Assembly: GCA_023823795.1 (NCBI GenBank)
Contig: CP085711.1
Location: forward strand, 62,001 to 126,000
DNA from: Bacillus sp. F19
GTDB taxonomy: Bacteria; Bacillota; Bacilli; Bacillales; Bacillaceae
DNA: 64,000 nt
Reading direction: 5' to 3'
In this document: positions 36,668-64,000 of the stretch, piece by piece
Layout: every line of letters starts with the position of its first letter
Position numbering within the stretch: the first letter of the stretch is position 1
The notes under the pieces: generated by a model
What the model saw: the letters and a program-made list of their open reading frames with translations, nothing else
The model's database searches: none
Told to the model about the DNA's origin: nothing
Made by a program: the position numbers and the translations under genes

Positions 36668-36941
36668 CAATCTATACCGATTTATACTGGCTACAACCCA
36701 GCCTTTTGGTTATTTCTTCATTTTTCCAAAAATTATGTTCATTCAAACATATCTTATTTATATTGGATAGTTTTGTAGAAAAATACTGAGAAAGCTTGTA
36801 TGTACGTATACACATGTAAAAACTTTACAAAAATCTCACATGAGTTAGGTTGTGAACTTATGCGAATTTGTGTTATTTATAGAATAAGTAAAAAAATTAA
36901 GAAATACCAAATTTGCCTAATAACTAAAGCAGGTGAAAATA

Positions 36942-37724
36942 TTGTTAGCTCATGAGCGTCATGAAAATATAATGGAATGCTTACGAAAAAATAAGTCTGT
37001 CAAGGTGTCTTCGATCACAAAAACGTTTGGTGTGTCTACCGAAACAGTCCGCAGGGATTTTGAATATCTCGAGAAAGAAGGGTATATAAGAAGGGTGCGC
37101 GGTGGAGCGGTTTTAGATAATGCGAACAGTCAAGAAATCAATTTCTCATTGCGGGAAACCAAAAATATTGAGGAAAAGATGGAAATAGCGAAGATTGCTG
37201 CACATTATGTTACAGAAGGACAATCCATTGCATTAGATGTCAGCACAACAAATACCGAATTGGCGAAAGAATTAAAAAGCAGGTTTCAAAGACTTACCAT
37301 TTTAACAAATTCCTTAATCATTGCCAAAGAACTTTCAGAAATGCCTCATTATACGATTTTGATGCCGGGGGGAGTGCTAAGGAATGAAGAGTTGTGCATC
37401 GTAGGTCAGACCGCGGAGGAGTTTTTCAAAGGATTTCATATCGATACATTTTTTATGAGTATCAGCGGCATTTCGTTGACGGAAGGACTAACGGATTACG
37501 GATTAGGTGAATACCAAGTAAAAATGAAGATGCTGGGGAATTCTCGAAATTGTATTGTCTTAGCAGACAGCAGCAAATTTGATGTTGCATCCTTATTGAA
37601 GGTTTGCCAGTTTGATAGGATTGACCGTATTATTTCTGATTCAAACCTATCCGAAAAGGTACTGCAGAAATATAAAAAAGAAGGTATTGAAATTGTGAAT
37701 AAGATTAATTTGAAGGAAAAGTAG
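36942..37724 (+). CDS. DeoR-family transcriptional regulator, copy 1
   Basis: A 260-residue DeoR/GlpR-type regulator. TTG at 36942 gives MLAHERHENI, the usual DeoR start, with AGGTGA 6 bp ahead. The helix-turn-helix is VSSITKTFGVSTETVRRDFE (about 20-40), followed by KEGYIRRVRGGA. The C-terminal sugar-phosphate-sensing domain shows IALDVSTTNTELAKEL, LTILTNSLIIAKEL and VLADSSKFDVASLLKV. It lies 640 bp upstream of the first large metallophosphoesterase and may respond to a phosphorylated sugar. It differs from the copy at 53787 by scattered changes plus one divergent patch. Confidence 0.9.
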   Translation: MLAHERHENIMECLRKNKSVKVSSITKTFGVSTETVRRDFEYLEKEGYIRRVRGGAVLDNANSQEINFSLRETKNIEEKMEIAKIAAHYVTEGQSIALDVSTTNTELAKELKSRFQRLTILTNSLIIAKELSEMPHYTILMPGGVLRNEELCIVGQTAEEFFKGFHIDTFFMSISGISLTEGLTDYGLGEYQVKMKMLGNSRNCIVLADSSKFDVASLLKVCQFDRIDRIISDSNLSEKVLQKYKKEGIEIVNKINLKEK

Positions 37725-37909
37725 CCGTCTACTTTCCTTTTTTTTATGTGTTTTTTAAACTCAGTTTATCTCATTTCAGCTTCTCTCCTCAAATTTCAAG
37801 TAGCAAAGTAAATCTTTTATTTTTTGCAGCCAGGAAAATAAAATCCACCATCAGCTATTTATGTGCAATTGTGTGTTTTTGTGTGATTTTTCATAAAAAA
37901 CAACAATAA

Positions 37910-37952
37910 TTTACACGATATTTACAGAAAATCAATAATGATTGTGTATTAT
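37910..37952 (+). promoter_or_regulatory. PhoP-box-like direct repeats and -10, metallophosphoesterase 1
   Basis: TTTACA (37910), TTTACA (37921) and TCAATA (37932) stand at exact 11-bp steps, followed after 9 bp by TATTAT (37947-37952). The same geometry occurs before the three other metallophosphoesterase genes. This is the pattern of Bacillus PhoP-activated promoters, without a -35 box. Confidence 0.7.
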
Positions 37953-37977
37953 TTGTTTATACAATAGGTAATTTGTG

Positions 37978-38368
37978 TGAGTATGTTATATTTTATGCTG
38001 TTTTGAGGTGGCGTCTATTGTCATGTATTCCCCCTATTCTAGGAGGTGATGTTTCAAAATATCGGCGTACCAGGATTAAAGCACCATTTCAGTTTAATGA
38101 GAGCAGTAGAAGGAGAAAATCAAGGTTCCAATATTGGACTCGAAAGGGGGATTTCCGTGACGAAAAATCTCCTCTCATCCCGATCGATGGGAGGATGCCC
38201 GCCATCTTTGTAAAGCGGGGCGACCTTCTTCAGCACAATGGAGTCGTCGACATGATCGATATAATCAATATTCCGCATCAAAGTTTCGCTGCGGTTTTGT
38301 TTTTTACTCAATTTTACAAGCTTTTTGAACAGACTCTTAAAATACTTAAAATATGGAGGTTTTCTGTA
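37978..38368 (+). other. Long conserved 5' leader of metallophosphoesterase 1
   Basis: About 400 bp between the Pho-like promoter and the start codon, about 95 percent identical to the copy at 54811-55203. It is open in the enzyme's frame but without a signal peptide or ribosome site at its left end. On the opposite strand both copies keep a frame containing VAPLYKDGGHPPIDRDERRF, which may be a remnant of an unknown gene. Hairpin-forming CTCCTCTCATCC/GGATGAGAGG-like segments are present. Confidence 0.5.
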
Positions 38369-63406: not shown

Positions 63407-63423
63407 TATCAATATTGCAAAAA

Positions 63424-63466
63424 TTTACGTTGGATTTACACCCTGTTAAAATTTGTCACTTACCAT
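63424..63466 (+). promoter_or_regulatory. PhoP-box-like repeats and -10, metallophosphoesterase 4
   Basis: TTTACG (63424), TTTACA (63435) and TTAAAA (63446) at 11-bp steps, then TACCAT (63461-63466) after 9 bp. A fourth, upstream box (ATTGCA) is one base out of phase compared with copy 2. Confidence 0.72.
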
Positions 63467-63592
63467 TAAGCAGATAAGCAAATTTGATTCTGGAGGGGGT
63501 GGTTTTAGAATAATGTCCGGCCAATGGAATGTATCAGTGAGTTGATATGCTAAATTGGGTGGAAATCTTGCAGCAAGAGTTGTATAGGATCA

Positions 63593-63709
63593 ATGCTTAC
63601 GAATTTAGCTCAAAAACTTTACGACGAGGGAGGGACAACCAGATTCGATGTTAACGGGGTCTCGCTGTCAAAACGAGAATTTTTCCAGCTAAGCGATCAA
63701 GTAATATAA
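63593..63709 (+). CDS. Conserved 38-codon micro-ORF in the leader, copy 2
   Basis: Same start, stop and length as 49203-49319; protein MLTNLAQKLYDEGGTTRFDV, then NGVSLSKREFFQLSDQVI. Only one residue differs. About 56 bp just upstream (from about 63513) are absent from copy 1, so the frame is conserved although the surroundings are not. Function unknown. Confidence 0.5.
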   Translation: MLTNLAQKLYDEGGTTRFDVNGVSLSKREFFQLSDQVI

Positions 63710-63813
63710 AATCCTGATTTTCAACCCCTCTAAGGGACCCCTTAACGGGCTAAGCAAAATGACAAACGGCCATTTCATATTGAGTATTACAAAGAATAAC
63801 AGGAGGTTTAATT

Positions 63814-64000
63814 ATGCTATTTCTTAAAAGGTTAAAAATTCTAACACTAACGATAATAGCTATTCTAGTAGGTTTTAGTGCTGTGCCTTTTCAGGGGGAA
63901 AGCTATGCAGAAGGGACAGAAAACACTACGGAAGAACCTATCTTCAGCTTCATGTCCATGTCGGACACGCATAGCAATACGGGTAAAACGGCTAAAGCTG
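63814..64000 (+). CDS. Metallophosphoesterase 4, N-terminal part cut by window
   Basis: ATG behind AGGAGG starts MLFLKRLKILTLTIIAILVG, a signal peptide nearly identical to that of protein 2, followed by EEPIFSFMSMSDTHSNTGKT with the first metal motif D-x-H intact. Only 62 codons are in the window. By its start and leader it is a close paralogue of the 49424 gene. Confidence 0.88.
   Translation, partial: MLFLKRLKILTLTIIAILVGFSAVPFQGESYAEGTENTTEEPIFSFMSMSDTHSNTGKTAKA

Follow-up and report, generated by a model that had tools for sequence, protein, structure and literature searches.

What controls the large exported phosphoesterases clustered in Bacillus sp. F19, and how was the cluster built? 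Four metallophosphoesterase (MPE) genes, together with genes for GlpQ and PhoD, lie in a 64,000-nucleotide (nt) stretch (GenBank assembly GCA_023823795.1, contig CP085711.1, positions 62,001 to 126,000 of the forward strand), here called the window. The genome consists of two contigs totaling 5.59 Mb: C1, the chromosome, and C2, of 507,307 bases, on which the window is C2:62001-126000. Coordinates without a prefix are window positions; L and G numbers are our handles for loci and genomes. A sequence-only reading had listed these six enzymes and proposed that they form an island controlled by PhoP. The enzymes are as listed: Pfam Metallophos matched MPE-A1, MPE-B1, and MPE-A2, the GDPD and PhoD families matched their namesakes, and the fourth MPE (MPE-B2) could be read for 62 amino acids (aa). 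We conclude, with a probability of roughly 85%, that the island belongs to an ordinary PhoPR regulon of the B. subtilis type, of which it is a duplicated portion carried on a plasmid and assembled from horizontally mobile cassettes.

Pho boxes in the window and across the genome

All four MPE promoters have TTTACA-like hexamers in 11-bp steps and a −10-like hexamer that begins 9 bp past the last one, as had been described. The box of MPE-B1 (49083..49136, plus strand) scores 46.9 and reads ATTACA-N5-TTTACG-N5-TTTACA-N5-TTAAAA-N9-TACTAT. That of MPE-A2 (54732..54785, plus strand; score 43.3) has TATTAT as its −10-like hexamer, that of MPE-A1 (37899..37952, plus strand; 38.1) has good hexamers at 37910, 37921, and 37932 followed by TATTAT at 37947, and that of MPE-B2 (63413..63466, plus strand; 36.3) ends in TACCAT. 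Before phoD, on the minus strand (33407..33460), stands TTTACA-N5-TTTAAA-N5-CCAAAT-N5-TTAAAA-N9-TAAAAT, which scores 39.8 with a poor third hexamer. Such phased hexamers close to a sigma-A −10 are the mark of a Pho regulon of the B. subtilis type. Because A1 and A2, like B1 and B2, are paralogue pairs, the four MPE promoters count as two independent cases.

The scorer consists of four hexamers at 11-bp steps, a 9-bp gap, and a −10 hexamer. Its hexamer consensus, TT(T/A/C)ACA, is that given for PhoP boxes in an excerpt of PMC6327384; an excerpt of PMC4415409 gives repeat units of 11 nt. Of 500 nonoverlapping 800-bp stretches of chromosome, 6 reached a score of 36 and 1 reached 38, and six 226-kb Markov sequences (the size of the first 226 kb of C2) gave maxima of 35.3 to 38.9. 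When spacing was varied over 506 kb of C2, sites scoring at least 40 numbered 15 at a step of 11 versus 0 to 5 at steps of 7 to 10 and 12 to 15, and 15 at a gap of 9 versus 0 to 7 at gaps of 4 to 8 and 10 to 15. With the cutoff lowered to 36, the 11-bp step still led (27 sites versus 4 to 22).

The rest of the regulon is recognizable in the same genome. Its own pst operon has the box TTTACA-N5-TTAACA-N5-TTAAAA-N5-TTAACA-N9-TATTGT (score 50.8), laid out as at the MPE promoters. An orthologue of PhoP (78% identity) is encoded at C1:3907611, and a 586-aa open reading frame (ORF) follows it at the place expected for phoR. One base past the stop codon of this presumed phoR begins a Pho box (L098:5801-5854; score 47.1); an excerpt of Devine 2018 (PMC6232261) mentions that in B. 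subtilis PhoP boxes lie between the stop of phoR and the terminator. The chromosome also carries a third MPE-A (A3) with a box scoring 44.1, another MPE with a box scoring 42.4, and a B-type box (46.6) 1.5 kb before a GH92 gene. A further box, C1:692101-692154 (minus strand; 40.6), lies upstream of genes for a DUF47-like protein and a Pit phosphate permease-like protein, but on the other strand, and is a possible repression site. Boxes resembling that of MPE-B1 are present in other genera: six of the seven MPE-B or related MPE loci of other genomes have a box scoring 38.4 to 47.3 within 800 bp upstream (one of the six on the opposite strand; the Peribacillus box is inverted), and the seventh scores 32.0. 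Given the pst layout, the box after phoR, the PhoP orthologue, the phase control, and the boxes in other genera, the computational case for PhoP control of the MPEs and PhoD is good, and we consider such control very likely.

The Pho-boxed phosphoesterase island exists as predicted, but its extent had been put at positions 36700 to 64000; it spans about 130 kb of C2 as a mosaic of duplicated cassettes. Over 506 kb of C2, 19 sites score at least 38, 11 of them within C2:95-224 kb. The corresponding number in 400 kb of chromosome (20 evenly spaced stretches) is 1, upstream of a glpP-like gene, and in view of that gene this site too may be real. Ten of the 19 C2 sites precede a phosphatase or phosphoesterase gene: MPE-B (3), MPE-A (2), PhoD (2), PhoX (1), and two other Metallophos genes, encoding a Metallophos-DUF4073 protein and an NAGPA-Metallophos protein. 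At MPE-A2, a 132-aa leader ORF intervenes between box and gene. MPE-B2 falls just under the cutoff, as does a second NAGPA-Metallophos gene (37.7).

Several points weigh against PhoP control as a general account. The first hexamer of the A1 box is poor (AACAAC) and that of the B2 box is lost (TATTGC), which leaves three good repeats in each, and the −10 hexamers of the B-type promoters are weak. For glpQ, the predicted control is not supported: its best site scores 34.0, lies on the opposite strand, and is not significant because 20 of the 500 control stretches reach that score. The consensus was turned into scorer weights by hand. At the cutoff of 36, the 9-bp gap is indistinct (27 sites versus 18 to 26 at other gaps). 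A simpler phased-hexamer pattern allowing one mismatch was not enriched in the whole genome (13 matches); since the reversed pattern matched as often (14), that search is uninformative. The PhoP-site scan covered the chromosome as a sample, namely, the 400 kb and chosen loci. Finally, 9 of the 19 C2 sites do not directly precede a phosphatase gene: 2 precede transporter genes, 1 each a GH38-like gene, a DUF6528 gene, a hupE gene, and a short remnant resembling PhoX with another MPE behind it, and 3 have no next ORF within 1.2 kb.

The replicon and the spread of the cassettes

C2 is probably an extrachromosomal replicon, a megaplasmid. No tRNA gene was found on it in the parts scanned (all but C2:60001-62000 and the final 1.3 kb), the only two ParB-domain matches both lie near the end of C1, and the ParA and primase regions of C2 are ∼87% identical to those of plasmid pBY2G20 of Metabacillus dongyingensis (362 kb; NZ_OK052578.1). 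Common to the two replicons are stretches of backbone and one MPE that has a Pho box and a linked GntR gene. On pBY2G20, by contrast, three sites score at least 38 in 344 of its 362 kb, and phosphatase genes follow two of these; the plasmid has a single annotated MPE of this group, and no array was seen there. The host itself is probably a Metabacillus or a near relative of that genus.

In the 133 kb around the island, there are 56 repeat pairs of at least 250 bp; two of these fall within the repeat-rich gene 34810-35829. The product of this gene looks exported, has long EEATEEE and NASANSAVHF repeats, and matches no Pfam family. A DDE transposase gene (61158-62630, minus strand) lies between MPE-A2 and MPE-B2, and a related fragment precedes MPE-B3. 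A NikA/Opp-like ABC transporter (C2:169111-174078), whose matches fall under the curated NCBIfam cutoffs, lies behind a B-type box.

The gene set was also sought in related genomes, as the sequence-only reading had suggested, and cassettes were found in Cytobacillus, Peribacillus, Neobacillus, Paenisporosarcina, and Sporosarcina. MPE-B has relatives over most of its length in Cytobacillus citreus, Peribacillus alkalitolerans, Neobacillus niacini, two Paenisporosarcina genomes, and Sporosarcina globispora; two loci in Paenibacillus phytorum match its C-terminal part only. Among 81 genomes of its own family, MPE-B was matched at E ≤ 1e-40 only in its own genome and, at 41%, in G045. The MPE-A catalytic domain (E ≤ 1e-10) had close matches among these genomes only in its own and G067, with weaker ones in four others. 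MPE-A is also present in both Paenisporosarcina genomes and as a broken copy in S. globispora, where a gene like window positions 36100-36654 is followed by a DeoR gene in the same order as in the window; it was not found at E ≤ 1e-30 in the C. citreus, P. alkalitolerans, or N. niacini genomes. The genera carrying related cassettes fall in the Bacillaceae and Planococcaceae. Synonymous divergence (dS) among eight readable MPE-B genes, including three copies from this genome and omitting the frameshifted L045, is 0.08 to 0.28, and because it is so low, MPE-B appears to have been transferred recently. The comparison indicates that cassettes have moved recently between genera of the two families.

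The exported enzymes

MPE-B1 (49424..52627, plus strand) combines a GpdQ/Rv0805-like metallophosphoesterase domain with CBM13-like, LamG, Big_3, CBM6, and DUF7402 domains (CBM, carbohydrate-binding module). MPE-B2 (63814..64000, plus strand) is readable for its first 62 codons; the bases beyond, C2:126001-129275, read N. The motif set of calcineurin-like metallophosphoesterases, which we take to be DxH, GDxxN, GNHE, H, and GHxH, is intact in B1, B3, B4, and the six MPE-B copies of other genera, except for GDITE in L040. By sequence, the catalytic domain of MPE-B1 matched GpdQ in the PDB (2dxl and 2zo9/3d03; E = 1.4e-5). In a fold search with an MPE-B model (predicted local distance difference test [pLDDT] score, 82.3), the first match was a zebrafish dimetal phosphatase (2nxf; 5.4e-11), followed by Rv0805 and GpdQ (∼7e-11); identity in the eight best matches was 14 to 19%. 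Because of these matches to GpdQ by sequence and to Rv0805 and GpdQ by fold, MPE-B is likely a binuclear phosphodiesterase. It resembles GpdQ (3d03/2dxl) in sequence and both GpdQ and the class III phosphodiesterase Rv0805 in fold, and B1 has all five metal motifs; it differs from them in being secreted and in having several additional binding or Ig-like domains.

MPE-A1 (38371..41563, plus strand) has a signal peptide, a LamG domain, a metallophosphoesterase-like domain, and a DUF7402/F5_F8 C terminus, with SDPE at motif I and GHTQ at motif V. The longer ORF that opens with TTG at 37973 is unlikely to give the start of A1; 38371 is where both signal peptide and ribosome site start. MPE-A2 (55204..58074, plus strand) has SDTE and GHTQ. 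The ligands expected at these motifs were not found: Glu replaces His at motif I (DxE) in all seven MPE-A copies read, and Gln replaces His at motif V in six of the seven, the copy in G067 having GHTH. The changes are shared across genera (A1, A2, the chromosomal A3, L111, L112, L113, and L049), and Pfam Metallophos still matches in spite of them. In known structures of the family, both positions are part of one metal site. Variation at motif I is also seen in other Pho-linked MPEs here, so loss of MPE-A activity does not follow from these changes. A structure model of MPE-A (pLDDT of 41.8 on a four-row alignment) was not used.

The Tat-exported phosphodiesterase/phosphatase PhoD (31729..33399, minus strand) matches PF09423 (E = 4e-111) and PF16655 and has an SRRRF motif. 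The GlpQ-type glycerophosphodiesterase (45961..47394, plus strand) has the GDPD domain (PF03009) and a C-terminal CBM35 match below the cutoff. Among the matches listed, none of the nine proteins searched against NCBIfam reached a curated cutoff.

The CBM6 region of MPE-B (residues 691 to 844) had pN/pS values of 1.3 to 4.0 in all 15 pairs of six genes, compared with 0.40 to 1.46 in the catalytic region and 0.05 to 1.21 in DUF7402. Seven of the 15 pairs reached an uncorrected P of <0.05; the pairs are interdependent, and recombination has probably taken place.

The B-type unit and the weighing of explanations

The B-type unit consists, in order, of a palindrome, a Pho box, a long leader, a secreted enzyme, and often a HupE-like protein. 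At MPE-B1, the palindrome is AAATCCTGTCTACACAGGATTT (49025..49046, plus strand); it lies 58 bp ahead of the Pho box and is predicted to be a GntR/HutC operator. The 22-bp pattern AAATCCTGTNTANACAGGATTT occurs with at most two mismatches at seven places in the 5.59-Mb genome (the reversed pattern at none), all 58 to 64 bp before a B-type Pho box. Seven of the nine B-type promoters found in the genome have it; those at C2:125413 (MPE-B2) and C2:153136 do not. The consensus for HutC operators in an excerpt of PMC4494728 is GTMTAKAC. The core on C1, GTATATAC, fits it fully, and that on C2, GTCTACAC, fits except at K, where all six C2 copies have C. The adjoining regulator (47729..48496, plus strand) has GntR (PF00392) and UTRA (PF07702) domains. 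The domains are those of HutC-subfamily regulators such as NagR (excerpts of PMC4494728 and PMC4333415), and the palindrome with its GTNTANAC core is a candidate operator of that kind; what differs here is that the operator-like site comes ahead of a Pho box. N. niacini has a second palindrome with a Pho box (L042:15094-16802), followed by a secreted protein, a relative of which follows the C1 GH92 gene. There and at L035:9842-10785, a weaker extra box lies just upstream (38.0 and 37.4).

The MPE-B1 leader (49137..49423, plus strand) is common to B2 to B4 and several relatives. At the Rfam gathering score, no family was found in the window; three subthreshold matches in the leader were read as chance. 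Leader identity (0.90 to 0.97) is about that of four-fold synonymous sites (0.89 to 0.98) in pairs without L041 and L042, whose leaders differ (0.67 to 0.81). A conserved regulatory RNA is unsupported because the leader is no more conserved than those sites. A 38-aa leader ORF was likewise rejected as a conserved peptide; it has no Pfam match and has an early in-frame stop in L040.

A HupE/UreJ-type membrane protein (58754..59890, plus strand; PF13795) is found again behind MPEs, both here and in other genera. Further copies follow an enzyme at C2:158830, 167047, and 181345 and in L041 to L045; of the six other-genus loci, five have HupE after MPE-B and the sixth has a fragment of it. Another, at C2:382780, is directly behind a Pho-like site, and L073:2235 has a similar start. 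That HupE supplies metal to the cassette enzymes is a guess.

On the PhoPR account, chromosomally encoded PhoP∼P would, under phosphate starvation, bind the 11-bp-phased hexamers just upstream of the weak −10 and, by analogy with known Pho promoters, recruit sigma-A polymerase. The exported phosphodiesterases and phosphatases, with their carbohydrate-binding modules, would act outside the cell on organic polymers, freeing phosphate that the Pst transporter takes up. Teichoic acid, the example given in the sequence-only reading, is one candidate substrate. In B-type cassettes, the palindrome is probably the operator of the HutC-type regulator that adjoins some of them and would add a second, substrate-linked input. 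The sequences indicate that the units multiplied on C2 by repeated segmental duplication. We offer more tentatively the idea that the B-type unit is a self-contained mobile two-input cassette, governed by PhoP∼P and the HutC-type regulator, that captures MPEs, PhoX, glycoside hydrolases, and perhaps the NikA-like transporter and carries HupE as a metal supplier, its CBM6 under diversifying selection toward new phosphate-bearing polymers.

The hexamers could instead be real but passively inherited, with many copies being decaying leftovers of duplication and few cassettes expressed. Gene remnants in the leaders (SLH-region-like in C2:153080-153519, before C2:153519, and PhoX-tail-like in C2:130890-131634, before C2:131281) fit this, as do the lost hexamer and missing palindrome of B2, the broken MPE-B and MPE-A copies of S. 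globispora, and MPE-B dN/dS values of 0.46 to 0.84 (15 pairs of six genes). However, the reading frames of B1, B3, B4, A1, A2, and A3 are open, and the box is at 38 or more at six of seven loci in other genera; we regard such decay as rather unlikely. It is less likely still that local DeoR or GntR regulators sensing sugar phosphates are the chief control and the Pho box merely modulates. A DeoR-family gene precedes A1 (36933..37724, plus strand; PF08220 and PF00455), A2 (53778..54569, plus strand; 94% identical to the A1 copy), and A3 (paralogues of the A1 copy at A2 and A3 are 94 to 95% identical), the HutC-type GntR gene adjoins B1, the C1 GH92 cassette (93%), and the N. niacini (94%) and M. 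dongyingensis (95%) copies, and the palindrome fits the HutC consensus. Yet no GntR relative was found (tblastn; E ≤ 1e-15, identity of at least 45%) at four of the six other-genus loci (L040, L041, L043, and L045) or in the examined part of L044, the palindrome sits well upstream of the core promoter, and besides the two B-type boxes here, those of L043 and L044 lack it. Least probable is a general polysaccharide-utilization region in which phosphoesterases are incidental: B-type boxes do precede the GH38-like gene and, by 1.5 kb, the GH92 gene, and GH95 and other carbohydrate genes occur elsewhere in the window, but 10 of the 19 C2 sites precede phosphatase or phosphoesterase genes, and pst has the same promoter layout.

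The PhoPR reading remains our preferred one. Compared with the B. subtilis regulon (pst, phoD, and glpQ in an excerpt of PMC6232261), the likenesses are the PhoP orthologue, phased TT[A/T/C]ACA boxes, PhoD, and the box after the presumed phoR; what differs is the many duplicated, horizontally moved modular-MPE cassettes on a megaplasmid-like replicon and a glpQ gene without a clear box. The Pho regulon is already known; what is new is the mobile cassette with its apparently dual input. A full-text search of a partial literature collection, judged by title, met no earlier report of such an array. Here, a nutrient-starvation regulon is seen to expand in two ways, through duplication of cassettes on a plasmid-like replicon and through their transfer from one genus to another; promoter, enzyme, and accessory membrane protein travel as a set. 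It offers a test case for how a conserved regulator acquires new targets, along with a group of secreted phosphodiesterases, as yet unstudied, that could free phosphate from organic polymers in soil.

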